A DNA stretch of 64,000 nt from NCBI GenBank assembly GCA_019752015.1, contig JAIEMQ010000016.1, positions 1 to 64,000 of the forward strand, read 5' to 3'. Positions 39 to 15,010 of the stretch are shown here, in pieces. Each line of letters starts with the position of its first letter. The stretch's first letter is position 1. Made by a program: the position numbers and the translations under genes. A model generated the notes under the pieces. That model saw nothing but the letters and a program-made list of their open reading frames with translations, ran no database searches and was not told the origin of the DNA. Source of the DNA: Cyanobacteriota bacterium (GTDB lineage Bacteria > Acidobacteriota > Vicinamibacteria > Vicinamibacterales > UBA2999).

Positions 39-446
39 TTACACGCCGAGCCGCAAACGCGCTTGTACTGGGACTAGTGGCACGAACAGCCTGGCGACAA
101 GACCATACAGCCAACCGAGAAGGCGCTCGAGAAGACCGGGGTGTCGATACAGACAGAGGCCACCGTTGACGGCCCAGATATCGCAGTCGTCTCCCTTTCG
201 CAGTCCGCGGTTTGAGCGAAGCGTGTTGGTCTGCGCCCATGCCACCGTTGTCATCGGCGCGTCCTGTCTCGCCCGGCCCGCGGCAGCCAGCAGCGCCTGC
301 CAATCCGGAAGACGAGTCTTCAGGAGCATTTCGATAGGCGTCGGCGATGGCCCGATGTCCGTGGATTCCTCACGACTACGGGTCGCGGCTCTCAAGCCGG
401 AACCGGTGCGCTCGAGAACGGACTCCGGACTGTCGCCGACTGCCAT
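39..446 (-). CDS. Small hypothetical protein, last gene of the CHAT/caspase operon
   Basis: A 135-residue protein that I do not recognise. The start is well supported: an AGGAGG Shine-Dalgarno sequence (452-457, minus strand) lies 5 nt before the ATG. The N-terminal half is polar; the C-terminus (about residues 100-130) is a leucine/valine-rich hydrophobic stretch that could be a membrane segment, followed by a short arginine-containing tail. It lies 108 bp downstream of the caspase-like gene on the same strand, so it is probably the last member of that operon. No catalytic motif is visible. A membrane-active partner or substrate of the neighbouring proteases is possible, but this is only a guess from context. 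Confidence 0.55.
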   Translation of the reverse strand: MAVGDSPESVLERTGSGLRAATRSREESTDIGPSPTPIEMLLKTRLPDWQALLAAAGRARQDAPMTTVAWAQTNTLRSNRGLRKGDDCDIWAVNGGLCLYRHPGLLERLLGWLYGLVARLFVPLVPVQARLRLGV

Positions 447-554
447 GCGGTCCTCCTGAAGCGATGGAAGCGCTCACAGTAACATGGCGTCCGCTTGCGA
501 GTCGTTACACTTACGGTTCAGGGGTTCATTCGAGAATGAGGATCGGATTCGAAA

Positions 555-2639
555 TCACCGGGGTTCAGCAATATCCCCGTTACCCTGGATCAGTAGCCAG
601 ATCTGGCTGAAAACCGCACGCGAAAACAGCTCCAACGCGAGCGAAGGAACAGCAAGCGAGTCTCCTTCAGCCGAGACCTGAGACTGCAAACCGGCGAGCA
701 TGACTGGCACGCGAGGTCGCGCGACAGGGTCTACGAACGATCGCCCGAGCATCCGCTCGGTAGCCGCGAAGAGAATGTAACCGTCGTCCAGATCTGGCGC
801 GTTCGTCCGAAGCAGACCTGCATATTTCCCCGCCTGGCTCGCATCCTGATTGCCCAAAGCAGCGTAGCCGGCTAACGCCAGAGCCAGAGGCTCGTCATCA
901 AGTCCGTCGAGGAGAGAGACTACATGGGTGCGCCCCTCGGTCTTGAAGAAGCGTTGTGCCCAGATGATCCGTTTCTGCGAGGCGTGATGACGGCGACGTA
1001 GCGGGTTTGGGGCCAGCAACAATTCGATCGAGGGATGTCTGTAGCCGGTGCGATCGATGCCAACGATCGTCATTCTCCCCGCCAGCAATGGCAGCAGCAG
1101 CTGGCACGGCTGCCCGTCGTCAGCTACAAGTCGTAGCTGCGCTACTCCTGGCCTCCCAACGTAGCTGCCATGCACCAACTCCGCAATACCGCTAGGCGGC
1201 GTGGCTGACTGAAGTTCCCTTGGGTCCACCGCTTCGACGGTTGGTTGGATCCCTTCGGCCAGCACTAGGAGCCCTGCCTGGCCAGGGTTCAGGTCCATTC
1301 GAAGACTCTCCCCGCGGTCAAGGCTGTCCAGCAGGCGATCGAGTGGATTCTGCGGCCGGTCAAATGACATCGGAACGACCAGCTCTGTCTGGTCTGCCCG
1401 CAATTCGAATTCCCGCTCGAAATTGCCTTCCGGTGTGGCCATCACGGCTCGGTAGCGATCCGGCGGTACTTGGAGACGGTAGCCACCCCGACTCCTGGCC
1501 GGAAGGTCGACCGGTTGACCACCGCCGTTATACAGGTGGACAGGCAAATGCGGGTCGCAAGGCTCGATCGACAGTTCGACAAGCGCAGCGTCACGACCGC
1601 TGAGCGTGCCCTCGCCGGGTCGTTGCAACCAAAGCTGCACGATGTGGGGTGACGGCCGCACACGGCTATAGCCATAGTGCTCAACGTACCCAGGCGCATG
1701 CGCAACGATCCTATAGAGCTCGTCCTGGAGCAGATCGAAGCGGAATGGGGGTCCGGTGCGCGTCGCCACTGTTGTGAGAGGGCTGTCGCGGTAGATCTCG
1801 ACCGTCGATGAGTGCGCCGCAGCGGGCGGTCTGACATCGACGCGCAACTCTCCCTGGCCGGCAGGACCGAGCCGCGCCACAATCGGATTGCTCGGAATTT
1901 GTCCGCCGGCCACGCACCGCTGGCGGTGATTGGTACGTTTTGGCACCTCGCGCTCCAAGTAGGCGCGCAACGCCTCGAAGTGCACGACACGCTCGCCGGC
2001 GTCGTAGTCGACGGTCGCGTCGGCGGCACCTTCCAGCCCCTCGAGCAACACCTGAGTGAACACGCCTGCATCGTTCATCTCGAAGGCGCGCTTTCCGTAA
2101 CCGGTCGCGTACAGCACATACTGCGCGACATCGGCCGGTGCGGCCCTCGATCGATCGAATGGCAGCCGGGCACTGACTATCTTTTCGAACAGTTGCTCGT
2201 CTTCGTGACGACACGTGTCGAGAAAACAAAGCTGCGTTCGGAAGCCAGTGGTCCCCAGCCATAACTCCAGTTTGGGCCAGGGGATCGCGCTTTCCCCGTA
2301 AGCTCCGGCCCTCGTATCCTGGGGCAACAGCAGCAGTTGATTGTCGAAATAGCCGATGCCGTGACCAGCGTAGAACAGGTAAAGGCGGTCGTCTGGTCCA
2401 GCCTGACGGCCCGCCACCTCCAGTTGCAACAGGGCATCGCCGATCTCTGCTCGAGTCGCTGGGCGCTCACCCCGCTCTGGGATGTGAGGAGCGCAGAGCA
2501 GCGAGACGTGTTGAGCCCAACCCTGTTGGCTTAGCCAGGCCGCTATGCGGCGCGCGTCCTTCGCGGCGCTCTCGAGCCGCTCCTGACCGCTGGCGGGCGG
2601 GTAATCATCGATTCCAATGATCAACGCGCGGCTGGGCAC
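555..2639 (-). CDS. Caspase-family (peptidase C14) protein with C-terminal extension
   Basis: A predicted cysteine peptidase of the caspase/metacaspase clan, about 694 residues. The N-terminal p20-like domain begins ALIIGIDDYP, contains YAGHG (catalytic His) and LDTCR (catalytic Cys), and runs to about residue 230. The rest, some 460 residues, has beta-rich segments and no family I recognise; it may be a sensor or adaptor part. The reading frame is open further upstream, but the GTG at 2639 is the likely start: it lies 15 bp after the stop of the upstream CHAT gene, has a GAGAACAGG-like ribosome-binding site, and puts the caspase beta-strand right at the N-terminus. No signal peptide is visible, so it is probably cytoplasmic. 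Metacaspases usually cut after Arg/Lys; specificity here is unknown. Confidence 0.85.
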   Translation of the reverse strand: MPSRALIIGIDDYPPASGQERLESAAKDARRIAAWLSQQGWAQHVSLLCAPHIPERGERPATRAEIGDALLQLEVAGRQAGPDDRLYLFYAGHGIGYFDNQLLLLPQDTRAGAYGESAIPWPKLELWLGTTGFRTQLCFLDTCRHEDEQLFEKIVSARLPFDRSRAAPADVAQYVLYATGYGKRAFEMNDAGVFTQVLLEGLEGAADATVDYDAGERVVHFEALRAYLEREVPKRTNHRQRCVAGGQIPSNPIVARLGPAGQGELRVDVRPPAAAHSSTVEIYRDSPLTTVATRTGPPFRFDLLQDELYRIVAHAPGYVEHYGYSRVRPSPHIVQLWLQRPGEGTLSGRDAALVELSIEPCDPHLPVHLYNGGGQPVDLPARSRGGYRLQVPPDRYRAVMATPEGNFEREFELRADQTELVVPMSFDRPQNPLDRLLDSLDRGESLRMDLNPGQAGLLVLAEGIQPTVEAVDPRELQSATPPSGIAELVHGSYVGRPGVAQLRLVADDGQPCQLLLPLLAGRMTIVGIDRTGYRHPSIELLLAPNPLRRRHHASQKRIIWAQRFFKTEGRTHVVSLLDGLDDEPLALALAGYAALGNQDASQAGKYAGLLRTNAPDLDDGYILFAATERMLGRSFVDPVARPRVPVMLAGLQSQVSAEGDSLAVPSLALELFSRAVFSQIWLLIQGNGDIAEPR

Positions 2640-2653
2640 AGAGAGCCTGTTCT

Positions 2654-4486
2654 CTACTGAAACTGCACTGGTCGACCTGCCGCGAGCCGGTGCAATACAT
2701 AGCCGAGCGCGGTCAGAATGAGACCGGCGTACAGATTGCCCCGAGGCGGAGTGACCGACGCGGGCGCCAACCACAACAGCGCCACCGGCCCGCACAGCAT
2801 GATATAGCCGGCCGCGATAACCATCGTGTCAGCCCAGTCCCATACAGGCGCCGCGACGCGGGCGTCGGAAATAAGCGCGACGCCGTGACCGACCGCCACC
2901 TGCCAGCTCAGTAGGCCGGCCGGCACAAACAATGTTGCGAGCAGCAAGATCTGGGCGGCCGGCACCAGCGTGCCCCAGAAATTGAACGCCACGAGTAGCA
3001 GCAGCAGCTGCCAGGCATAGCACGCCGGCAGCGCTATCCCCATCGCGGCGGCGCCGAGCATTCGAAGCAGCAGCGCGGCTCGAGCTGACGGGGACCAACC
3101 TGGCCCCGCGGGTATTGATACATGTCCAAACAGGCGTGCGGCAACGGCCATCAGTGGCGGCAACGCCGCCATCGCGGCAATCACCCAGACAACCTGCTCC
3201 GCCGCAGGCGCCGCAGGCGAAGCTCCGCTCAGAACCAGCAGCATCGCGACCAGCAAATGGACACCTCCAAATCCCAGGCTGATCCTGCTAAGCTGCCGCT
3301 GGCCTTCTGGCTGGCGCATCCAGTGCTCGATGCGACTACCAGCCCGAGCGATCGGTTGTTCCTGCGGGGTGCCAAGGCTGGTGTACAGCGTCGGCAAGCT
3401 CCAATCGATCTCCCCGTGCATCTCCGCAGCGATCTTTAGTCGCGTATGGGCCAGCGCCTCCTCGATAGTGGCTCCCAGTTGTACCGCGCCATAGAACGTC
3501 CGCGCGAAAATGACGGCGGCATCCTGCTGAATCTCGTCCTGCATCGCAACAACGTACGGAACGCCGCCGTAAACCAGCTGCATCGCGATGGAGCTCGTCG
3601 CTGTGACACTGGCTCCGTGGCATGAGTTCAGGACGACGAGTTGAACACTCTGAGTGGTGTTGAGGAGGTGCAGGAGGCGTTCGCCGGCTACTGCCTGGGC
3701 CCTGCCGTCCTCATCGGCAAACACCAAGTAACTGTGATGGCGGGAGTCCATCGCGATTTCGCCGTGGCCGAGAAAATGGACAACCTGATGATCTCGTGCT
3801 GTCAAGGTCTCCTGCAGCCGTTGAACTGAGCCGGGTTGGGCCACAAGAGTATAGAAGTCATCCTGCCCAGCGGCCTGACGAATGGCGTCACGCTCTGCCT
3901 GCCAGATCGCGGGCGGGATCTTGACGTACTGCTTGGGTTGGGCCACCACGTGAGCGATACGAAACGGCGCCGACACGAAGAGGGATCCCTGCCGCACCGT
4001 ATCCAGCAAGCGGCGCGTGATGCTCACCCGCTGCATGAGACCGAGGTGCATTTTCAGCTGCTTGAGATAGGCAATTTCCCAAGGCATACTCAGCAGCTGG
4101 TCGGCGTGATCGCCCGCTTTGGCCTCGAACACCAGCCGGACGTTGCGCTCCCTGTCGAACACGTGCTGGAGCAGGCGGGGCAAGGCCTCCCGCAGCGCGT
4201 CGGGCAACAGTTCGTAGAGCTGAACCCCTAGATCCCGGACGGCTGCCGTTGTCGCGGGATCTGCGTCGTCCGGCGCGCGATCGTCACCGCGGCCGGCCAT
4301 CAGGCGATTGGCGTAGAGTTGCCGAAATGCTTCGAGCCGCTTCTCGATATCGGCCTGGAATAGACCGCCTCGCAGCAGGATCGGAGAGTCACGAACCTCA
4401 GCCTGGTAGATGACCTGATCCGGATGGTGGCTTTGCCGCGAAAAACGGACCACCACGTTTTCGATCGGCGCCTGAGGGTGTCTCAC
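2654..4486 (-). CDS. CHAT-domain protease with C-terminal membrane segments
   Basis: A 610-residue protein. Residues about 120-380 form a CHAT domain (caspase-like peptidase fold): VVHFLGHGE carries the expected catalytic His and VVLNSCHGAS the Cys. The C-terminal 200 residues hold several hydrophobic helices, so the protease is tethered to the membrane with the CHAT domain probably in the cytoplasm. Translation starts at a GTG that overlaps the stop of the upstream membrane-protein gene by 4 bp (GTGA), indicating translational coupling. The caspase-like gene follows 14 bp after its stop. Two peptidases of the same clan back to back in one operon suggest a proteolytic cascade or a protease-receptor pair; substrate unknown. 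Confidence 0.85.
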   Translation of the reverse strand: MRHPQAPIENVVVRFSRQSHHPDQVIYQAEVRDSPILLRGGLFQADIEKRLEAFRQLYANRLMAGRGDDRAPDDADPATTAAVRDLGVQLYELLPDALREALPRLLQHVFDRERNVRLVFEAKAGDHADQLLSMPWEIAYLKQLKMHLGLMQRVSITRRLLDTVRQGSLFVSAPFRIAHVVAQPKQYVKIPPAIWQAERDAIRQAAGQDDFYTLVAQPGSVQRLQETLTARDHQVVHFLGHGEIAMDSRHHSYLVFADEDGRAQAVAGERLLHLLNTTQSVQLVVLNSCHGASVTATSSIAMQLVYGGVPYVVAMQDEIQQDAAVIFARTFYGAVQLGATIEEALAHTRLKIAAEMHGEIDWSLPTLYTSLGTPQEQPIARAGSRIEHWMRQPEGQRQLSRISLGFGGVHLLVAMLLVLSGASPAAPAAEQVVWVIAAMAALPPLMAVAARLFGHVSIPAGPGWSPSARAALLLRMLGAAAMGIALPACYAWQLLLLLVAFNFWGTLVPAAQILLLATLFVPAGLLSWQVAVGHGVALISDARVAAPVWDWADTMVIAAGYIMLCGPVALLWLAPASVTPPRGNLYAGLILTALGYVLHRLAAGRPVQFQ

Positions 4487-5805
4487 TGCGTTAGTTCTGT
4501 CTCGCTCCCGGCCATCCGAAGGGCGCCGAGCAACCGCGCGTGCGCCGCAATGCGCGCCAGCAGCACATCGGGCCAGTTTGCCTCTGAACCGCTCTCCGGT
4601 GTCCGGCCTATCGTTCCATAGAGGGCAACGATCGTGTGTTGTAGACCGGTTACGGCATGCGTGATCGTCGGACTGTAGGAAGAATCTAGCAACGCATCCC
4701 TGGCGTCAGACAGGGTCTGAGCGAGTTCCGGAGCCAGACCGGTCTCGGCCAATGTGGCGATCCCCGAATGGTCGGTCAGCGCCGCCAGCCAACGCTGGAG
4801 GTCGGGAGGGATCACGGCCTCCTCTGCGAGCCTGGCGTAGGTCGAAGCGATAGGCCGCATCTGCTCGGGAAATGCTGGCGATAAGTAGCGAATGGCGCCG
4901 GCTCCCCCCGGCTGCAGGCTCAGGCTCAGGGTCAGGCGCTGGGTCTGATCCAGTGTCAGGCGCGAGCTGGCGCTACGCACGATCGGCCCGAGGCTACCGT
5001 CGCGCAGTAGGGCCATGAGGGCGACGCTCGATCGTGCAGCGCACTGCTCGTTGGTCATCAGTGACAGGAGCGATGTGATTGGCGCAGAAAGTGCCCAGCG
5101 TCCGGCGTAGGTCGCCCGAGCGCTCTGGTCCTCGAACACCACTAGCGGACGTCTCACCCAGCACATGACAGCTGCTTCGAACCGCAGGCAAGCCAGCCCG
5201 CCGACCAGCAACGCCACCGCGATCACCACGCCAAGCCCGATCGGCCGTACGAGTGTTAGGCCAGCGATGGCGAGCAAAGCGCAGCTTGATGCGGCTGTCA
5301 GTCGGACCATGCGCGCCCGGTTCTGCCATCGCAGCACCGGCAAATCGGACAAGGGGCCGGGGGAGCGCTGGCGGGAATGCTCGCGTGTGATCGTCCTTGC
5401 CCTGTTGAAAACCCACACGGCGCAGGCAGAAGAAAGCAGCATCCCAATCAGCAGCGGAGCTCCGATCAGCCAGCTGAGGGCCCTGGCGGCCGGCAACACG
5501 ACCCCGATGCCCGATAACACTCCGACAAGCGTTGCAGGTGGTGCGCAGAGGTACAGGAACCACAGCCGCGCGTGGCCAGTCGCCCCCACCGCGATGCCGA
5601 CGAAGAACATCAACGGCGAAATGGGCACCAACGCGTGACTGACCAGAATGACCAAGGAATGGCCCCAGACTGTGGCGACCACGCCCAGGCCCGCCAAAGC
5701 CGCCAGCGCTGTCAATCCGCTGAGCAACCACGCGCGACGCCAGACTTGCCGGTTGGACGGTGCATCAGTGACTAGCCGGTGTGGAGCACAATACAGCCAA
5801 ATCAT
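4483..5805 (-). CDS. Multi-pass membrane protein heading the CHAT/caspase operon
   Basis: A 440-residue protein not assigned to a family. The first 220 residues contain about six to eight hydrophobic segments (for example near residues 28-50, 55-80, 85-135 and 170-205). The remaining half is soluble, alpha-helical in character, and has no motif I recognise. It is the first gene of the operon and overlaps the CHAT gene by 4 bp (GTGA). Together with the membrane-tethered CHAT protease downstream it may form a membrane sensor or scaffold. The 150 bp between it and the divergent MlaD-like gene must hold both promoters. Confidence 0.7.
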   Translation of the reverse strand: MIWLYCAPHRLVTDAPSNRQVWRRAWLLSGLTALAALAGLGVVATVWGHSLVILVSHALVPISPLMFFVGIAVGATGHARLWFLYLCAPPATLVGVLSGIGVVLPAARALSWLIGAPLLIGMLLSSACAVWVFNRARTITREHSRQRSPGPLSDLPVLRWQNRARMVRLTAASSCALLAIAGLTLVRPIGLGVVIAVALLVGGLACLRFEAAVMCWVRRPLVVFEDQSARATYAGRWALSAPITSLLSLMTNEQCAARSSVALMALLRDGSLGPIVRSASSRLTLDQTQRLTLSLSLQPGGAGAIRYLSPAFPEQMRPIASTYARLAEEAVIPPDLQRWLAALTDHSGIATLAETGLAPELAQTLSDARDALLDSSYSPTITHAVTGLQHTIVALYGTIGRTPESGSEANWPDVLLARIAAHARLLGALRMAGSETELTQ

Positions 5806-5955
5806 CGTGGATGACCTGTTTCCAAGTGCAATCTCGCGAGGGTGTGAGCACCCGGTCGGGCGATTCTGTCACAAGCCCCAGACGTGCTGTTCGGACATCT
5901 ACGGATGAAGTATTCGTAACGCAATGCGGCCTCGTGCCATTTCGGTAAAGGCCGC

Positions 5956-6405
5956 ATGAGCATCGTCAGTTTAAGAATCTCCCTGCTCGTGCTGGCGGCG
6001 ATGGTCTGCACGGCCTGCGTTCTTCGCGACCACATCTTCGGCGATCGCATCGAGGTGTCGTTTCGGGACGCGAGTGGACTCGAAGCAGGCGATGGCGTGT
6101 ACCTTGCCGGTATTCGAGTAGGCACGGCGGGCGACCCGGAACTGCGCGATGGAAGGGCGATCGTCCCTGTCTATATCCGCGACGTGAGCGCGCTTCCCAG
6201 GGACGGCATGGTGTTCCTCCTGACCGATTCGTCGCAGGGCGGGAGCCTGTCGGTCGTGGCCGTGCATGGCGCACGCGGCCAGGGCGCACCTTCCCTATAT
6301 CAAGGTGCGACGAATGAACTGGAATTGGCCGGCCTGGTGGGCGTCAGCGAAGCCAAACGGCTGATGCAGGGCTTCTCGGAGTGGCTTCCTTCCCCGAAGC
6401 CATGA
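5956..6405 (+). CDS. MlaD/MCE-domain-like envelope protein
   Basis: A 149-residue protein with an N-terminal hydrophobic signal (residues about 6-22) ending in a cysteine-containing stretch (VCTAC) that could be a non-canonical lipobox. Residues about 33-60 read VSFRDASGLEAGDGVYLAG followed by IRVG, the hallmark start of an MCE/MlaD domain (lipid-binding domain of Mla-type phospholipid transporters). It is a lone, short MCE domain with no MlaE/F partner in the window. It is transcribed divergently from the CHAT/caspase operon and convergently with the anti-sigma gene. Role inferred: periplasmic lipid or envelope binding; a sensor input for the neighbouring signalling genes is possible but unproven. 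Confidence 0.6.
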   Translation: MSIVSLRISLLVLAAMVCTACVLRDHIFGDRIEVSFRDASGLEAGDGVYLAGIRVGTAGDPELRDGRAIVPVYIRDVSALPRDGMVFLLTDSSQGGSLSVVAVHGARGQGAPSLYQGATNELELAGLVGVSEAKRLMQGFSEWLPSPKP

Positions 6406-6418
6406 TCGAATCCTCGTG

Positions 6419-7216
6419 TCACTGACGCCGGGCAACACGGAACGATTGTGTCGCCACCGTCTCGCCGTCGGGGCTACCCGCGACGCGCAGAGTGAGCACA
6501 TAGTCGCCCGGCACCAGTAAAGGTGCATCCACGATCACGGTCGCGTCCGTCGCGCCGTTGGAACGCGTCATCACCGGAGGAGTGACCGGCAGTCGTGCGC
6601 CGCCATCTCGCGCCTGCAACTCGGCGGACAGCCCGGCTCCTTCCGGCACTGTCAGCCCTCTTACGGTCAGCTCGACTCGAGTGTGAGTCGATGCAACTTC
6701 CAACCGGTCAAAACTGGCGCGCGGCGCCCCGCGCTCACCCTGTGCCCCAAGTGTCGCTGTGAGTGTGGAGGCACCTGGCGACAGAATTCCGCTGTTTCGT
6801 TGCCAGAGAAACAATCCAGCTACCAACACGGCACTGGCAACAAAGGCATAGCGAGGCAACGATCCCGACGTCAGTATCCAGGCTCGCAGATGGGACAGAA
6901 AGCCGGGTGACTTGCGCGGTACTGCCCGCGAGGCCTCTGCAGCGCGCAGCACGTTCAATGCTTCCTCGACTCGAGCTCGTCGCGCAGGTGTTGCGTACGA
7001 GACTGCAAAGGACGCGCGTTGCTCCGGCGTCAGCCCGCCACGGTGCCAACGAAGAATCAGGTCGTCATCCAACGCGGCCATACGCTCGTAGTAATCCGGA
7101 TCTTCCGCGAGCCGGTCCAGAATCTGGTCGCGAGTCGTCGCGTCCAACCCCCCAAGCAGGTAATCCGTCATCACGCGTTCTTCGTTGGCGTCCGACACCG
7201 TGGCCTCTTCAGACAT
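6419..7216 (-). CDS. Membrane anti-sigma-like protein with C-terminal beta module
   Basis: A 265-residue protein. The N-terminal 100 residues are acidic and helical (for example MTDYLLGGLDATT and ALDDDLILRWHRGGLTPEQR), a layout typical of acidobacterial anti-sigma-like proteins that lack the zinc HxxxCxxC motif. A single TM helix follows at about residues 120-138. The outer part (about 150-265) looks like a beta-sandwich with a PGDYVLTLRV signature and has a close relative at 13032-13526. It sits 4 bp after the ECF sigma gene in the TPR-CHAT operon. Inferred role: it binds the sigma factor at the inner face of the membrane and senses envelope conditions through the outer module, possibly being a protease target. 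Confidence 0.7.
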   Translation of the reverse strand: MSEEATVSDANEERVMTDYLLGGLDATTRDQILDRLAEDPDYYERMAALDDDLILRWHRGGLTPEQRASFAVSYATPARRARVEEALNVLRAAEASRAVPRKSPGFLSHLRAWILTSGSLPRYAFVASAVLVAGLFLWQRNSGILSPGASTLTATLGAQGERGAPRASFDRLEVASTHTRVELTVRGLTVPEGAGLSAELQARDGGARLPVTPPVMTRSNGATDATVIVDAPLLVPGDYVLTLRVAGSPDGETVATQSFRVARRQ

Positions 7217-7220
7217 GCTC

Positions 7221-7871
7221 TTACAGGGCCTTGCGTTTCATGTGTCCGGTGGCTTTGCGGGGCCGGCGATTGCACTCAGGTAAAGCCTTCTCCTTCAGCT
7301 CCTCCCGAATGCGATGCACTCTTACCCGCAAATGCCCGACCGACATGTTCAATTCCGTCGCATGAGCTTCGTGATTGTCTTCTTCGCTATACCTGCACAG
7401 AGTCTCCCATTTCTCGGGAGTCAGCAATCGCTGCATCTCGCGCAGCATCAACCGTGCTTCAATTTGTGCCGTTTCGTCGTAACTAGACGACTTGGCTTGC
7501 CACGCAGTCTCGTCCAATTGCTGTGACCGTGGTACGTGCTTCCAGCCCTCCCGTAAGACGTTCTTCGCAAAGCCAAACACGTAGGCACGAAATCCGGAGG
7601 TACTGATGTCGGTGACCTTATCTAGCTTCTTCAGAGCACGGTGGAGAGCTTCCGCGGCGACCTCATCGGGATCCTGACAGCCATGCATTTCGAGGGATCG
7701 CGCGAGATGCTTCAGCAGCTTCTCGATCTTCTGATCAGCAACGACAGGATCAGGACCGATGAAGTCCATCAGGTCCGGTACAACGTCTCCGGTTCGAGTC
7801 ACCGGATCGGCCTGATCGTGCTCGTCCGCGCCCTCCGTAAGCGGCCTCCGCTTCTTCGGCGATAGGCTCAT
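7221..7871 (-). CDS. ECF-type RNA polymerase sigma factor
   Basis: A 216-residue sigma-70 family protein. Region 2 lies at about residues 40-115, including ISTSGFRAYVFGFAKNVLRE, the ECF pattern of a conserved core-binding helix. Region 4 lies at about 140-195, with MSVGHLRVRVHRIREELKE as the helix-turn-helix. The ATG overlaps the TPR-CHAT stop by 4 bp (ATGA), and the anti-sigma-like gene begins 4 bp after its stop, so the three genes are translationally coupled. Known ECF factors are held by a cognate membrane anti-sigma and released by proteolysis or conformational change; the coupled protease makes the proteolytic route attractive here, but this is inference. Confidence 0.85.
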   Translation of the reverse strand: MSLSPKKRRPLTEGADEHDQADPVTRTGDVVPDLMDFIGPDPVVADQKIEKLLKHLARSLEMHGCQDPDEVAAEALHRALKKLDKVTDISTSGFRAYVFGFAKNVLREGWKHVPRSQQLDETAWQAKSSSYDETAQIEARLMLREMQRLLTPEKWETLCRYSEEDNHEAHATELNMSVGHLRVRVHRIREELKEKALPECNRRPRKATGHMKRKAL

Positions 7872-10800
7872 CTCGGATCGCCGACAAACACGAACGCGCT
7901 CCAGTAGAATGGATCGTTGAAGCGCCGGTTGCGCAGCATGCTCAATTGCGCCTCACGGAGCGCCGCTGCGGGACGCCGCCGGCGAGGACCAAGCAGCTCG
8001 CCGTACATCGCCTTCATCAACTCCACGGTTGGCTCCTCATGCACATTGTTGAGCGAGCCGATCACAGACGCAGCGCCCGCGGCGAGGAAACCTCTGGCCA
8101 GGCCCATGACGCCCTCTCCAGGCAGATCCGGCCCGTCCACTGAACTGCACGCACTCAGGACGACGACATCCGCCTGCAGCGTGATGTCGGTGGTGATCTC
8201 GTTAAGCCGGACGCGGCCTCGCCGCCGACGACCCTCGGCATCGTACTGGGAGAGAATCACTGCCGACAACTCAGGCCTGAGACCGTCGGAAACCGCATGG
8301 GCCGCGAGATGCACGATTTGGTAACTACCAATCCGCTGCATCGCGTCACGATTTGCGGCGAAATCAAATGCGGCGAACCTCGGTTCAGACCTCGCATACG
8401 CCAATATCGAGTCCGCCTCGGTCCGCGCCAGCATCAGTCGTCCGCCCCTGAACTCGTCGCCGGCGAAATCGCCATCCGGCGATTCTGTTGGCAGCGGGCG
8501 TAGCGGCGTCAGACGCGGATCGTCTTCCTCGTAGACAGCATCCGCCACGACCGCGATCAAGCCGGGCGCCGCTGTGCGACCAGCGCGCTGCTTCAGTTCG
8601 ATTCCCGCCGACGCCGACGGCAGCATCGCTATCTCATGCTGAACGATCAGCGCCGTCTCGCGTCCAGGCTCGGGCATTGCGGCAAAAGGCACGAGCTGCA
8701 GCAGGCCGTCGCAAATCAGCAGCAGACGATGCTGGCGCAGGTCAGCCCTGAACTGGCCGAGCAGCATTTCGCTCAATGCACCGGCCTCGCGCTGCATCTC
8801 TGCCCGCAACTGTAGCGCCGTTGTGGGCGTACGTGCGGTGCGCATCAACTCCACGATCCTCGCGCTTAACCGATCGATCTCGTCTCTTGGCGGCAGGGTA
8901 ACTGCGGTAATCGACCCTGGTGCCACGAACCAGGCGTAGCTCTGACTTTCACCGAGCGCAATCCGCAGCAGGCGCGTCGTCGGATCCAGGAGGTGGCGCT
9001 GGATCTCCCGCAACGAAAAGATGGGCGGGCTTGCCGGTGTTGGGCCGACGCCTGCCCCACGAATCCGGCTGTCAAGCGTGCGATACGCGGTCAGGTGCAC
9101 GTTCATCTGCTCGAACGCTGCCTTCGCGTCGACCGCAGAGCCCGGCTGATTGGAGAGACGCGCAAGCCGGCTCGCCCAAAAGTCCAGTCGCCGCTGGTGC
9201 TCACGTTGCTGTTCTCGAAGCTCTGGATCCACGCCTCGGCGCGCGTCCGTACCGGACTCGCGCAAGAGGTCGATCAGCGACCGGGCCCGTTCGCGCTCCG
9301 CCATCTCGAAGGCCGCGATCGCGTAACCGTTAGCGGGCCTGACGGCATGCAGCCGCATCAAGACATCGATCATCGCGGCGAAGTACTTCTGGCGATTCGC
9401 AAAGTACAACGTGCGCGAGTACTCGCCGGATACTCGGCCACGAACATGTTCAATGAGCGTGATGGCGGCATCGAGATGCCGGCGCGCCACGGGAAGCGCG
9501 CCCGCATCGCGCTCGAGCACACCGAGTTCGTAACTGGTCTCTGCCTCGGGGTCGGTCAGTCCGATCTCGCGGCGCATGGCCAGCGCCTCGGTCAGCACAG
9601 CGCGCGCGGCATCGACGCGGCCAAGATGCCGGTTGGCCACTCCAATGTGATGCAGGGCGGTGGCAACACCTCGACGCACCTCAGCACGGCGATAGATCGC
9701 GAGGGCTTGCTCATGGTTGGCCAACGCCGCGGCGAAGCGACCAATGGCTGTCTCGACTTGACCGAGCAGGTCGAGCGCCTCGGCTTCGAAGAGGCGATCG
9801 GGAGTGGACGCGCCCCGAATCGCCGCGAGCGCGTCGTGCACGCCGGCGCCGGCAACATCGACGTGGCCTCGGCCAAGCGCGATCTGCGCCAGCCGCAATC
9901 CCAATCTGGCGATTCGCGGATCGTTCGGGGGCAGCGCGGCGCGCGCGCGCACGAAGTACTGTTCGGCGGCGTCAAGATCGCCGACCGCGCGATACGCAAC
10001 GCCGAGCAGATTCAGGAGCGGCGGTCCAAGCCGAGGATGCCGCTCCAGTACCGGGGCCGCCAGCAGCAGGCGTTCGAGTGCGGCGTAGTAGTCGCCGCTC
10101 TCCACCAGCATCGCGGCCTCGTTGGACAGCGTCGCAGCCCGATCGATCTCGACGCCAGGCAATGACGACCACAGCTCGAGCGCCTTCTTATAGTGCTTGC
10201 CGGCTTCGTCAAGCACACCGCGGTTGTATAACGTGGCGCCGAGATTGTTCTCTAGAAGGGCCACCTGATATGTCTGCCCCGATGATCGAAACAACTCCAA
10301 GGCGCTGGCGTATGCGGCCTCAGCCTCCTTGGGCTTGTTGGTGACTCGGAGCATGTCACCAGTCCGTGCCAGCGTCGTCGCGATACCACGAGTGTCGTTT
10401 ACCTCACGCCAGATAGACAGCGCAGAACGCAAAGCGACCAGTGCCTCAGCGGGCACGGGACGGTCCCCGGTCGCCAATCGCTTGCCATCGCTTTCAAGCC
10501 GCTCGGCCTCGGCGGAATGTTGATCGGCTGGGGTTACGGGATGCGGCTCGCCGTCGATCGAAATTTTGTACTGAATCCGCGCGGAGAGTGGCCCTTTAGG
10601 GGCGATCGCGATCTGGAACGTGTCATCGCTTTCGGCAATAAGCGTCGCCGACTCGACGCCACGCTCCCGCATGTCGAGGTTATAGACGGCACCGCCAGGC
10701 GGCGTGATCGCCAGGACCAGATCGGTCTGAAACTGCTCCACCAAGACACGAACCGCCGTGCCCCGATGCAGTGCAACCTCGAACCGTCCGCGACGGTCGG

Positions 10801-10951
10801 CCGACAACTCGGCCTCCACCGGGGCGCCCGGTACAAGCATCGCCTCGCCACAGGCCATCGAGGTAATGGTGATCAAACCGGCGCCGAGCAGGCCCCAGTT
10901 CCGTCCACTCAACTGGCCAGCGCTTCGGCTCACCGGCGCCCGCGACAACAA
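7868..10951 (-). CDS. TPR-CHAT protease, exported or lipid-anchored
   Basis: About 1,027 residues. It begins with a basic/hydrophobic leader ending TSMACGE (possible lipobox Cys), then a beta domain, then tetratricopeptide repeats over about residues 200-540, then a CHAT peptidase domain in the last 350 residues. Catalytic His is in VHLAAHAV and Cys in VVLSACSS. The open frame continues to a GTG at 10990, but a TTG at 10951 is better: a perfect AGGAGG at 10961-10966 stands 9 nt before it. TPR-CHAT proteins include separase-like proteases and Csx29 of Craspase. It is the first gene of an operon with the ECF sigma and anti-sigma-like genes. If exported, its CHAT domain would face the outer module of the anti-sigma protein. 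Confidence 0.85.
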   Translation of the reverse strand: MLSRAPVSRSAGQLSGRNWGLLGAGLITITSMACGEAMLVPGAPVEAELSADRRGRFEVALHRGTAVRVLVEQFQTDLVLAITPPGGAVYNLDMRERGVESATLIAESDDTFQIAIAPKGPLSARIQYKISIDGEPHPVTPADQHSAEAERLESDGKRLATGDRPVPAEALVALRSALSIWREVNDTRGIATTLARTGDMLRVTNKPKEAEAAYASALELFRSSGQTYQVALLENNLGATLYNRGVLDEAGKHYKKALELWSSLPGVEIDRAATLSNEAAMLVESGDYYAALERLLLAAPVLERHPRLGPPLLNLLGVAYRAVGDLDAAEQYFVRARAALPPNDPRIARLGLRLAQIALGRGHVDVAGAGVHDALAAIRGASTPDRLFEAEALDLLGQVETAIGRFAAALANHEQALAIYRRAEVRRGVATALHHIGVANRHLGRVDAARAVLTEALAMRREIGLTDPEAETSYELGVLERDAGALPVARRHLDAAITLIEHVRGRVSGEYSRTLYFANRQKYFAAMIDVLMRLHAVRPANGYAIAAFEMAERERARSLIDLLRESGTDARRGVDPELREQQREHQRRLDFWASRLARLSNQPGSAVDAKAAFEQMNVHLTAYRTLDSRIRGAGVGPTPASPPIFSLREIQRHLLDPTTRLLRIALGESQSYAWFVAPGSITAVTLPPRDEIDRLSARIVELMRTARTPTTALQLRAEMQREAGALSEMLLGQFRADLRQHRLLLICDGLLQLVPFAAMPEPGRETALIVQHEIAMLPSASAGIELKQRAGRTAAPGLIAVVADAVYEEDDPRLTPLRPLPTESPDGDFAGDEFRGGRLMLARTEADSILAYARSEPRFAAFDFAANRDAMQRIGSYQIVHLAAHAVSDGLRPELSAVILSQYDAEGRRRRGRVRLNEITTDITLQADVVVLSACSSVDGPDLPGEGVMGLARGFLAAGAASVIGSLNNVHEEPTVELMKAMYGELLGPRRRRPAAALREAQLSMLRNRRFNDPFYWSAFVFVGDPR

Positions 10952-11048
10952 CCCCGCCCACCTCCTCAGACTCCGCCACCGGAGCCACACGAAGTATCCC
11001 CTCGGGTTGCAGGGAGATCAACCGCGGTGACATGAAACCAAAAGTCGC

Positions 11049-11077
11049 CGGCCAGGCCGCTGTCATGGGCCTGGCCG
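11049..11077 (-). promoter_or_regulatory. GC-rich hairpin in leader of TPR-CHAT operon
   Basis: A perfect 10 bp inverted repeat (arms 11049-11058 and 11068-11077, 9 nt loop). On the minus strand the stem is followed by GCGACTTTTGGTTTC, a modest T-rich run. It lies between a possible 12-residue leader ORF and the start of the TPR-CHAT gene, so it could be an attenuator-like terminator. The T-run is imperfect, so a simple RNA structure or an operator are alternatives. Confidence 0.4.
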
Positions 11078-11110
11078 ACGGAGGAGTTCACGCCGAATGT
11101 TGCGCCGACC

Positions 11111-11149
11111 TTACGCGAAGATCGGGGGCCACACAATCACGATTTCCAT
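11111..11149 (-). CDS. Possible 12-residue leader peptide
   Basis: A short open frame encoding MEIVIVWPPIFA. It is preceded by an exact AAGGAG ribosome-binding site (11158-11163) with 8 nt spacing, better than that of most genes in the window. It lies in the 436 bp between the zinc-finger gene and the TPR-CHAT start (11387 to 10952), followed 33 nt later by a GC-rich hairpin. No homologue is known to me. The strength of the ribosome-binding site is the only evidence for translation; chance occurrence cannot be excluded. The rest of this intergenic stretch (about 11165-11387) shows nothing I can name. Confidence 0.35.
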   Translation of the reverse strand: MEIVIVWPPIFA

Positions 11150-11387
11150 GTGACGGTCTCCTTTCGCTGGAGAACCGCTCACGGCCGATCGCGATCTAAG
11201 ATGGGCGCGAGATCTCGGGCTACGTCATGCAGCGACACCCGACGGCAACGGCGGAACCGCTGGTCGCCGGCGGCCAGTTGCCTTGGCAGCCGAAATAGTT
11301 AAGAAGACTGAGAACGTACGGACGATCGACGCGAGGACTACTTGCGTGACACGACGCAGGCGACCCGGTCGACTCGGGGGCGAGCCG

Positions 11388-12122
11388 TTAGGAAATCGAC
11401 AGGCTGATGCTGTCTATCGGGAGTGAACAGCTCTCGACCGGCAGCGCTTCATCGTCGAAGCGTGCCGAGAGATTGCCGGTCTCGGCAGTGGCCACAATCA
11501 AGGCTTCGAAGACGACGGGCGCCACCGTCGGCAACGCGATCGTGCACAAGAGCCGCCGCCCCTGACACGCCACGTCCTTCGTTGTGACTTCGAACTGGAA
11601 TCGCCGGTCAGCGGTGATCACAGGGGGAGAGGACACCTGAAAGCTGACTGTCGTGCCTGATGGATCGCCGGTCGGCGTCAACAGGTCTGCGGCCAACGCG
11701 CGCACTGCCGCTCCGCGGGCACGAAGCGCGCCGCCTTCCGGATTCACGAGAGCGGCAAAGCCGGCCCGAATTTCGTTCAGACGAGACTCCACCCATTCGG
11801 CGGCGTTGCTGTCGGACATCCCCTCCATGACCCTGCGCCACGCCCCCTCGGGCTCTCGAGCACGCAAGTAGGTCTCGTAGATCGCAGGCGATGGAATGCT
11901 CGGCGGCGTAAGCAGCGGTAACTCACCCGTTTCGACTTGCTGCATCAGCATGTCGGCCAACACGTCGCTGCAGTCATCACACGTAAGCAGATGCGCTTCA
12001 ACCGCGCCGCGAGCGGATGGGCCCAGTCGCCGCGCCGCAAAATCCGCGAGCGACCTGCGGACTTCAACGCAGCGGGGTGGCACGTGCGGATTCTCGGAGC
12101 TCAAGAACGTCCTCATATTCAT
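11388..12122 (-). CDS. Zinc-finger (zf-HC2) anti-sigma-like protein
   Basis: A 244-residue protein. Residues about 43-53 read AHLLTCDDCSD, the HxxxCxxC zinc-binding signature of zf-HC2/ZAS anti-sigma domains. No convincing transmembrane helix follows; instead the C-terminal half (about 130-244) is beta-strand rich and may be a sensory domain. The start codon lies just 1 nt after the stop of the sigma-like gene upstream, an operon arrangement typical of sigma/anti-sigma pairs. ZAS proteins bind their sigma factor between regions 2 and 4; a soluble, possibly redox- or ligand-sensing type is inferred here. Confidence 0.7.
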   Translation of the reverse strand: MNMRTFLSSENPHVPPRCVEVRRSLADFAARRLGPSARGAVEAHLLTCDDCSDVLADMLMQQVETGELPLLTPPSIPSPAIYETYLRAREPEGAWRRVMEGMSDSNAAEWVESRLNEIRAGFAALVNPEGGALRARGAAVRALAADLLTPTGDPSGTTVSFQVSSPPVITADRRFQFEVTTKDVACQGRRLLCTIALPTVAPVVFEALIVATAETGNLSARFDDEALPVESCSLPIDSISLSIS

Positions 12123-12123
12123 C

Positions 12124-12927
12124 CTATACCGGGGCCAACCCGCCGTCCGGACCGAAAGCCCTGCGCCATAACTTCCTGAACTCCTGCAGCCGCACGTCGA
12201 GGGTCCCCCGCGAGATCTTGAGCCGTGCCATCGTGAACTTGTTCATTTCCTCGGACGATGCCTCGACAGCGTGACGATCCAGCAGGGGCACGAGTTCATC
12301 GAGCGAGAGTGACTCCGCATTTGCCACGCCAACGACGGCACGCACGCAACACTCGCGAAGGTACGCCTCTCTAGCGTCGAAGACGGCCTCCAGCGCCGGC
12401 CTCCCTCTGCACACTTCCTTGCATCCCCCCAACCTCTCGACCATGGCCTCGATGGCCGCGCGCGTGTGAGCCACTTCGATCAGGTGCTCCTCATCAGCTG
12501 GAACGGGCGGCAGGACCACATCCAGCTCCTGCGCAGTGACGCCCGCAGTCCGACGAGTCGGAGCGGTCACACGGAGTTCGGCACGACGACGATCGAGGCA
12601 GCGCCTCTTGAGGTACTGCCCAAACAAACCAGCAAACTGTGATTCGCCGCGCCAGGAAAACCCCTCGGCGGCGATCCTCGCTTCGAGGTTCGACAGCGCT
12701 GCGTCCGAGGCCTCGGCTGCCCATGCTTCTGCGGTCAGATCGTCTGGCGCCATGGTCCGGCAGAACGGGACTGCCCACGAACAGTTCAAGTTCCACAACC
12801 GCGTCCACGCTTCGTCACGAGCGGCGGGATCTCCGGACCTCCAGGCGTCGAACAACTGCTCGTCGACCGTGGCGAGAACCGGCGACACCAACGGTTCTGT
12901 CGTGTCTTCGTGGTCGCGTTCCGTCAT
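12124..12927 (-). CDS. Divergent sigma-70-like protein
   Basis: About 267 residues from the ATG at 12927 (the frame extends to an ATG at 12969; the inner ATG has a GGGTGG-like site and begins with an ordinary charged N-terminus). The first 130 residues follow the sigma region 2 pattern: LFDAWRSGDPAARDEAWTRL, then FSWRGESQFAGLFGQYLK and RRCLDRRRAE. The C-terminal part ends in a helix-turn-helix-like segment (MARLKISRGTLDVRLQEFRK) that may replace region 4. The middle contains an unusual cysteine-rich stretch (GGCKEVCRG, LRECCVR). It is followed at once by the zinc-finger anti-sigma-like gene. Similarity to standard ECF factors is weak, so the assignment rests on pattern plus neighbour. Confidence 0.6.
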   Translation of the reverse strand: MTERDHEDTTEPLVSPVLATVDEQLFDAWRSGDPAARDEAWTRLWNLNCSWAVPFCRTMAPDDLTAEAWAAEASDAALSNLEARIAAEGFSWRGESQFAGLFGQYLKRRCLDRRRAELRVTAPTRRTAGVTAQELDVVLPPVPADEEHLIEVAHTRAAIEAMVERLGGCKEVCRGRPALEAVFDAREAYLRECCVRAVVGVANAESLSLDELVPLLDRHAVEASSEEMNKFTMARLKISRGTLDVRLQEFRKLWRRAFGPDGGLAPV

Positions 12928-13031
12928 AGATGGAAACCACCCTGGTCCCGCCTTGCCCTCGACCCGCATGGCGGCACACGTCGCGGCGTTACAGGTCAGA
13001 TAGTAGCGAGGGAGCCGATCGTCCGATACCG

Positions 13032-13526
13032 TTATCGCAACGGAATCCGGCTGACGCGGAAGGCGCTCGTGACCACCACTTGTGACGACGCGCCTGCCAC
13101 CAGGCGCAATCGCAAGACGTAGTCACCATCCGCCGGTGCGGGCATCGTTACACTCACCATCGCGCCGCGCGAGGACGGGTCGACTGTCGGGCTGGGGAGT
13201 GGGATCGCGCCACCGCCGTCGACAGATTGCAGCTCGGCATCGAATCGCTCGCCGGGTCCGGGCTTCGACGTCATCAGAGACAACTGCACCTCCGTGGTCT
13301 GCGCCGGAACGCGGATCCGATCAAAGCCGTTGGACGAACGTGGTCCTCTCTCTCCGGCGGCGGACAGGTTGTAGGCGAGGACCACTCGTCCTTGGGCAGT
13401 CGGTTGCGATGCGGCGCGATCGGAGGGTCGCGTCCCGCTCCCGACGCGAGTAGCGACCCACGCGGCCACGAGCAACGTCAGTGCTACGAGCGACAGCGCC
13501 CTAACGCGTCTCTGGTCGTCGCCCAT
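13032..13526 (-). CDS. Single-pass membrane protein with anti-sigma-type outer module
   Basis: About 164 residues from the ATG at 13526. The N-terminus is basic, then one TM helix (about 10-28), then an extracytoplasmic beta module. That module matches the outer part of the anti-sigma protein at 6419-7216: compare ERGPRSSNGFDRIRVPAQTT, ELQSVDGGGAIPLPSPT and DGDYVLRLRLVAG with the corresponding blocks there. The N-terminal sigma-binding half is missing. The frame stays open to an ATG at 13715, but that extension has no hydrophobic or family features. It may be a stand-alone sensor or decoy for the same ligand or protease. It points away from the divergent NE0113-like gene. Confidence 0.6.
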   Translation of the reverse strand: MGDDQRRVRALSLVALTLLVAAWVATRVGSGTRPSDRAASQPTAQGRVVLAYNLSAAGERGPRSSNGFDRIRVPAQTTEVQLSLMTSKPGPGERFDAELQSVDGGGAIPLPSPTVDPSSRGAMVSVTMPAPADGDYVLRLRLVAGASSQVVVTSAFRVSRIPLR

Positions 13527-13801
13527 CAGCGCAATCCGGCAGACACCATCTCTTGGAAATGGCCGTTCGGCCGCGATCGTTACCGCCGTGCGTTGCGCTT
13601 TGTCATAGATCGCTGGAACGCTTGAACGGATCTCCATCGAGGACAGTGCCAAACCTTGGCGATTCACCGGGCGCGCGCTGTAACGACGCGGTCGAAACCA
13701 ACCATGTGTAGGCACATGCGAACGACCGCCCGCTCTGGATTTCCTCGACGAGGGTTTCCCGTGTCCTCGCCATCAATCCGTTGAATGTCGTGAAGTAAGC
13801 G

Positions 13802-15010
13802 ATGTTGTTGCCAGCATTGAGCGCAACCTTGATTCAATCGACTGGCGATCCTCGAGAAGGTATTCACTCAGGGTCACTGGCTGCAGCGCCCGCCGGCAAC
13901 TCCGATGCCGGCACTCTGCCGTCCAGCCTCACTACGTCTGTGCGCCATGTCTTGCTTCTCGTCGTTGGGTCCTCGGTCGCATCACTTGACGACGCCATCA
14001 CGGCGTTCGTAGGGGCCCGCCATGGCATCGATGATCTTTATGTTGTCGTGAGCGCGGATGCTGAAGAGGCTGCTCGGGACGTGATGTGCGCCTGGCTCAA
14101 GAAGTCCAGCGCCTTTGCGCGGATGTGTCGGACCGCCGGCATCGATCGTCACCGCCTGTTGCTGGGAACTCGAGCGCTCCGCGTCGTCGATGTGAAGCTC
14201 ACAGGCGGAATCGACTGGGACCTGGCCAATGGGTTGCTCGACATCGTCCGAGAGATTTGCACAGCGCGGACCGACCTGACGATCATCGTCCCTCAGCACG
14301 CTGGCGCGATGGCGGTCGCCGCACATGCCGCCTTACAGATTGGCGGACGTCCGCGTGACCGTTTCTATCTGCTAGCGGAGCCGTCGGCGTCGGAGCCGGC
14401 AACAACGGCGCGACTGCGACCGTCTTCGAAGCCACAGCCACGAACTACATCGCGGTTGATGGAGTTCCCGGTCGTACTCGAGGAGCGACCGTCAGCGGTC
14501 TCTTACCAGGAACTCGCCGTCGAGCGCCAGCGGGCAAGGCGGCGGTTGGCGGACCCGAGCCCCATGATCATCAGTCCACGTCGACGGACCATCACCATCG
14601 ACGGTACCGCGATCCGCCTGCCTCGTCTCGCCTTCTATTGGGTATGGGCCACGGCACGCTGCGCACCACGAGTGCTGCCCACTCGCGCGTTGTACGGCAA
14701 CTTCGACGTGGATCGCAGTGGCCGGCTGACAATCACGGCCGACGCAGACGCGCGGCCGCGGGCCGAGGCGGCGGTGCGGCAGTTGGAGCAACTCTTCGTG
14801 ACATTGTTCCCGACATCCGCTGACGAGTTCGCGCTGCTGCTCAAACGCGCATGCGGCGCCTCACCAGGATTGCCTGGCACGATGTCGCGCATCAACGCTG
14901 CGCTGAAGCGGGAACTGGGCATCGCAGCAGATCCGTACACGATCGTCAGTGAGCGAGGGAGCGATGGCTATCGGTTCAAGGTGCCCATCCGCATTCGCTT
15001 CGAATCGTGA
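13802..15010 (+). CDS. CRISPR-associated NE0113 (Csx/ring-nuclease-like) family protein
   Basis: A 402-residue protein. After an unstructured N-terminus, residues about 46-195 follow the Rossmann-like plan of the NE0113 family (TIGR02584 / Cas_NE0113): HVLLLVVGSS opening strand, DDLYVVVSADAEEAARDVM, an ICTARTDLTIIVPQHAGAMA strand-loop, then LQIGGRPRDRFYLLAE. The second half has the family's winged-helix-like part (ITIDGTAIRLPRLAFYWVWA). The usual ligand loop (SxAGGRKTM in family members I recall) is replaced by VPQHAGAMA, so cyclic-oligonucleotide binding may be lost or altered. No CRISPR repeats or cas genes occur in the window. It is divergent from the sigma/anti-sigma cluster. Assignment is from remembered family pattern, not a search. 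Confidence 0.6.
   Translation: MLLPALSATLIQSTGDPREGIHSGSLAAAPAGNSDAGTLPSSLTTSVRHVLLLVVGSSVASLDDAITAFVGARHGIDDLYVVVSADAEEAARDVMCAWLKKSSAFARMCRTAGIDRHRLLLGTRALRVVDVKLTGGIDWDLANGLLDIVREICTARTDLTIIVPQHAGAMAVAAHAALQIGGRPRDRFYLLAEPSASEPATTARLRPSSKPQPRTTSRLMEFPVVLEERPSAVSYQELAVERQRARRRLADPSPMIISPRRRTITIDGTAIRLPRLAFYWVWATARCAPRVLPTRALYGNFDVDRSGRLTITADADARPRAEAAVRQLEQLFVTLFPTSADEFALLLKRACGASPGLPGTMSRINAALKRELGIAADPYTIVSERGSDGYRFKVPIRIRFES

Follow-up and report, generated by a model that had tools for sequence, protein, structure and literature searches.

The window (the whole 64,000-nucleotide stretch of DNA that was analysed) begins where contig C7 begins, in a draft genome of 5.9 Mb, and is hence cut at its left edge. 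All of the parts that a preliminary description had noted in its first 15 kb are frames with coding-type composition (Table 1). The three caspase-clan proteins (P0002, P0003 and P0008) are present, with His/Cys dyads that are intact by sequence, as are two anti-sigma-like proteins (P0006 and P0009), the extra copy of an anti-sigma outer module (P0011) and the lone MCE domain (P0018). The true starts of P0002 and P0011 probably lie inside the listed frames. A further frame, P0001 (39-446), gave no match and has no support as a part, and P0005 and P0015, which are ORFs overlapping better frames, were discarded. P0018 is on the opposite strand, and its membership in the cluster is doubtful. The 15-kb stretch as a whole seems to be made up of three or more separable modules lying side by side.

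Table 1. Predicted genes of the 15-kb stretch, with positions in the window
Gene	Position	Strand	Predicted product	Match or basis	Grouping
P0002	555..2795	-	Caspase (H145/C195) with C-terminal region of unknown type	PF00656 1.4e-9; PADLOC caspase 3.4e-23	Module B
P0003	2654..4486	-	CHAT (H241/C289) with ~6 C-terminal TM segments	Pfam CHAT 6.3e-26	Module B
P0004	4483..5805	-	Multi-TM membrane protein	Hydrophobic segments	Module B
P0018	5956..6405	+	Lone MlaD/MCE lipoprotein-like	Pfam MlaD 1.4e-6	Between modules A and B
P0006	6419..7216	-	Anti-sigma-like: Zn-less N domain, TM 119-137, outer beta-type module		Module A
P0007	7221..7871	-	Diverged ECF-type sigma, 216 aa	TIGR02937 2.1e-8; Sigma70_r2 0.0026	Module A
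P0008	7868..10990	-	TPR-CHAT, 1040 aa; CHAT 734-1038, H899/C948	Pfam CHAT 1.4e-52; TPR_12 8.8e-36	Module A
P0009	11388..12122	-	zf-HC2 anti-sigma-like, HxxxCxxC at residue 44	zf-HC2 1.3e-5	Paired with P0010
P0010	12124..12969	-	Helical, weakly sigma-like	hhalign to sigma set	Paired with P0009
P0011	13032..13715	-	TM-anchored (71-89) second copy of P0006 outer module	Identity to P0006	
P0012	13802..15010	+	CARF (about 47-227) with C-terminal wHTH-like region	CARF5; fold	

The three genes of module B overlap head to tail, with the stop of P0004 overlapping the start of P0003. Relatives of P0003, counted as CHAT-region matches at 1e-10, were found in 13 of 347 genomes of the phylum (this genome included), and no sigma gene lies near the CHAT-TM gene in any of 16 related loci. 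No relative of P0002 was found at 1e-15 among the 347 genomes. Module B looks like an accessory island, perhaps one of a defence type. P0004 gave no family match above the cut-off in the Pfam profile search, and P0002 and P0003 retrieved no CHAT or caspase sequence from the PDB. The order of P0003 and P0002 recurs in a distant member of the phylum (L136:2001-4756), where a CHAT-TM gene and the caspase gene downstream of it overlap.

P0012, which is divergent from P0011 and forms module C, is a CARF protein by fold and profile. All three members of its family match the PADLOC model CARF5, the strongest at 1e-12. In the predicted model of P0012 (mean pLDDT 65) the N-terminal domain is CARF-like, and the structures that match the model best are almost all CARF proteins (121-160 residues aligned at Z 9.4-12.3), among them ring nucleases, Csm6, Cad1, Can2 and Csa3. 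The C-terminal third, modelled as helical with short strands, agrees with the wHTH of the Csa3/NE0113 regulators (PMC4012209). Like P0012, these regulators have a CARF domain and then a wHTH-like region, and they lack an effector domain. Of the earlier assignment of P0012 as NE0113-like, the CARF fold is borne out; two of the three family members match PF09623 (best 0.002), and P0012 itself does not reach this model. P0012 also differs from the Csa3/NE0113 regulators in lying outside a CRISPR locus, in a genome that gave no match to the Cas10 models TIGR02578 and TIGR02577. The RAMP model PF03787, used to look for Cas7-11/gRAMP or another RAMP protein, found no match in the draft genome either, although a diverged or unassembled gene could escape it. 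The proposed independence from CRISPR thus looks right. P0012 probably controls its own divergent neighbours when it senses a cyclic nucleotide. With the patterns used, about 85,000 GTDB species genomes yielded only two relatives, both of them in Acidobacteria MAGs of the same order, so that the genome of the window is probably acidobacterial as well; neither relative has a CHAT or sigma gene beside it on the available flanks, which are short on one side in each. We regard P0012 in this genome as a rare, separate addition beside the CHAT/sigma genes.

Two further loci lie elsewhere in the genome. Contig C31 carries a CBASS operon (L147:4606-8880) made up of a SAVED-endonuclease effector, a CD-NTase, an E1/ThiF protein and a small protein of E2-like appearance that has no family match. 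On contig C12, a Cas2-like gene and a Cas4-Cas1 fusion (Cas1g) accompany a 32-copy CRISPR array (L024:1061-5700), with no interference genes beside the array on the stretch read.

The preliminary description had joined all three proteases, the two sigma pairs and the protein now recognized as CARF into one relay triggered by a nucleotide or envelope signal. These genes do cluster physically within 15 kb and keep their dyads, and the CBASS cyclase of the genome could supply a cyclic nucleotide. However, the modules did not occur in combination in any other locus seen: sigma genes are missing from the CHAT-TM loci (0/16), CHAT and sigma genes are missing beside the relatives of P0012 (0/2), and P0002 stands without a relative in the phylum set. 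That the whole 15 kb works as one relay therefore seems to us very improbable. Since neither module B nor module C turned up with module A elsewhere, the single relay is not our main account, and neither of the two need belong to the module A system.

The claim of two sigma-like proteins stands for P0007, a clear sigma, and is doubtful for P0010. P0010 has no family match, and its hhalign match to the sigma set (76%, E 2.3e-5) is weak and covers residues 33-130, that is, sigma region 2 only. The one relative that turned up in 162 genomes is an ECF sigma (E 3.5e-4), and an AF2 model of the protein folded alone was uninformative (pLDDT 46). P0011 is 38% identical to residues 148-263 of P0006 over 118 aa (E 1e-16) and lacks the anti-sigma N domain; it is possibly a decoy or a co-receptor.

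The genes of module A are co-directional, and the start of P0007 overlaps the stop of P0008 by 4 bases. The match of P0007 to the sigma70-ECF model TIGR02937 spans residues 49-195 and covers sigma regions 2 and 4, at a value (2.1e-8) that is under the NCBI curated cut-off. P0006, for which hydrophobicity predicts a single-pass topology, matches the antisigma model NF052375 at 0.014, below the cut-off. Its hhalign match to the set of anti-sigma partners (97.5%, E 8e-12) is partly circular, as the set includes P0006 itself, and is given no weight here. Homologues of P0007 are present in loci L058, L059 and L061, and those of P0006 in L058, L061 and L115. The N-terminus of P0008 has an export-type hydrophobic segment (residues 35-53) and an imperfect lipobox, which together form the basis for predicting export, and the protein is probably an exported, envelope-located cysteine protease. 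Among PDB sequences, phmmer returned only TPR proteins for P0008 and no CHAT match. Inverted repeats upstream of P0008 and near the divergence of P0011 and P0012 are weak and not interpretable as operators.

To survey the neighbourhoods of CHAT genes, we called genes by a simple frame-composition script and built CHAT and sigma profiles iteratively. The survey covered 48 neighbourhoods (the window, its own genome and loci of the order similar to P0008) and then 20 loci of the class drawn with the Pfam CHAT model. A loose profile for sigma picked up false positives (of its 48 hits, 4 matched LuxR-type GerE, and Pfam confirmed Sigma70_r2 in 31), and the recount demanded sigma regions 2-4. A complete sigma in this sense lies at most three genes away from 42 of the 71 full-length TPR-CHAT genes (own genome 5/8, order 25/42, class 12/21), and is absent nearby for the remaining 29. 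Near the TPR-CHAT genes, 42 of 381 genes were sigma genes, as compared to 0 of 242 at five or more positions away (Fisher 5e-10, a value that is not exact, since the order set was picked by similarity to P0008 and the loci share ancestry). The class set, a few genomes of which also belong to the order, was drawn in a less biased way and gave a similar share; its near/far difference, with only 35 far genes, was not significant (p 0.07). The co-occurrence of TPR-CHAT, sigma and anti-sigma that had been suspected from the window is real and recurrent in the order and class.

A zf-HC2 match was found in 18 of 37 partners downstream of a sigma, mostly with a TM segment, and the alignment consensus of these partners shows a conserved outer region. 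Locus L061 has the same gene order as the window (CHAT, sigma, anti-sigma), in L058 CHAT and sigma precede a STAS-type gene (148 aa) and a P0006-like gene, and L115 has sigma, a P0006-like gene and CHAT; many loci place CHAT in a convergent or divergent orientation relative to the sigma pair. Export-type hydrophobic N-termini are carried by 49 of 71 TPR-CHAT proteins, as compared to 4 of 49 sigmas and 280 of 672 other genes.

Based on these observations, our leading account, which we hold tentatively, is that the probably exported TPR-CHAT protease P0008 gates the anti-sigma factor, with modules B and C as separable neighbours. The TPRs of P0008 would sense an envelope signal, and its CHAT domain would then cleave the outer module of P0006 in the manner of a site-1 protease. 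Further proteolysis would release P0007, and the freed sigma would switch on a stress or defence regulon. Relief of sigma inhibition by cutting of the inhibitor is known from DegS/RseA. It is also the mode of action of Csx29 on Csx30 (PMC10028731).

The roles might also be distributed the other way around, with the sigma/anti-sigma pair as the sensor that switches on CHAT as the effector (a protease or an executor of cell suicide) rather than CHAT as the upstream protease. We rate this, the main rival account, as possible rather than probable. Sigma and zf-HC2 genes lie together with CHAT convergent or divergent in L063, L066, L067, L078, L088 and L095, an arrangement that also fits sigma-controlled expression of CHAT, and many of the anti-sigma partners have a TM segment and an outer sensor-like domain of their own. 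On the other hand, CHAT comes first, upstream of sigma and in the same direction, in the window, L061 and L058, and proteases that cleave anti-sigmas, as in the two systems just named, are a well-known arrangement.

Of 91 aligned CHAT sequences, 82 retain both residues of the His/Cys dyad, the two CHATs of the window among them, and the caspase P0002 does so too, so that the protease sites on which the earlier proposal depended appear intact by sequence. These counts argue against the idea that the CHAT/TPR proteins are scaffolds or pseudo-proteases that bind the anti-sigma without proteolysis, which we consider improbable, although two paralogues in the same genome do lend themselves to it. 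Three TPR-CHAT frames of this genome (L020, L021 and L022) have an N-terminal zinc-finger motif of the anti-sigma type, which would physically join both functions in one protein, and two of them (L021:2030-5545 and L022:5995-9243) have lost the dyad. These two are likely pseudo-proteases, and because of this loss some CHAT members cannot act as proteases.

The recurrent CHAT-sigma-anti-sigma neighbourhoods in this group of Acidobacteria suggest a stress response switched on by a relative of caspases. Among the closest known parallels in organization is Craspase/CASP (Cas7-11, the TPR-CHAT protein Csx29, Csx30 and CASP-sigma; PMC10028731), in which, as in the window, a TPR-CHAT is coded with a sigma and its inhibitor. 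There, proteolysis has been demonstrated to lift the inhibition of the sigma, which is what we propose for module A. P0008 shares with Csx29 the TPR-CHAT architecture and a His/Cys dyad (H899/C948), but it gave no Csx29 sequence match in the PDB search and appears to be exported; P0006 is an anti-sigma-like membrane protein and not Csx30, and the genome lacks a RAMP or Cas10 match. More broadly, envelope TPR-CHATs may serve throughout this lineage as site-1 proteases of membrane anti-sigmas, in a CRISPR-independent signalling that would be the non-CRISPR counterpart of Craspase and perhaps its ancestral stock; we offer this as a speculative and somewhat unlikely extension. Craspase looks at present like an isolated invention, in which a caspase-like protease acquired by CRISPR relieves sigma inhibition. 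If TPR-CHAT/sigma/anti-sigma cassettes are a general type of signalling among Acidobacteria, several to a genome, Craspase may be one member of a wider class that CRISPR captured, and what the many unexplained CHAT proteins of bacteria do would, if this is true, become directly testable.

Parts of this picture are known, namely the Craspase relay and the occurrence of CHAT genes near ECF54 sigmas. In the open literature we found no description of an acidobacterial sigma/anti-sigma/TPR-CHAT cassette; prior notice in subscription papers or in the supplements of the ECF classification is possible. ECF54 neighbourhoods contain CHAT, subtilase and carboxypeptidase genes (PMC8999054) and thus resemble the window in placing an ECF sigma in the context of CHAT; proteolytic control has been proposed for them (PMC8999054). 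ECF54 was, however, described without an anti-sigma and with an actinobacterial model protein, whereas here an anti-sigma is often present and the hosts are Acidobacteria. The sections of PMC8195603 that we drew on do not describe the TPR-CHAT/anti-sigma pairing of the window, and P0002, with a score of 53.5, stays below the cut-off (140) of the model for EACC1-associated caspases. The EACC1 caspase and EACC2-caspase systems (the latter with ECF sigma and TPR genes) that these sections present do, as here, place a caspase-clan protein near an ECF sigma and TPRs.
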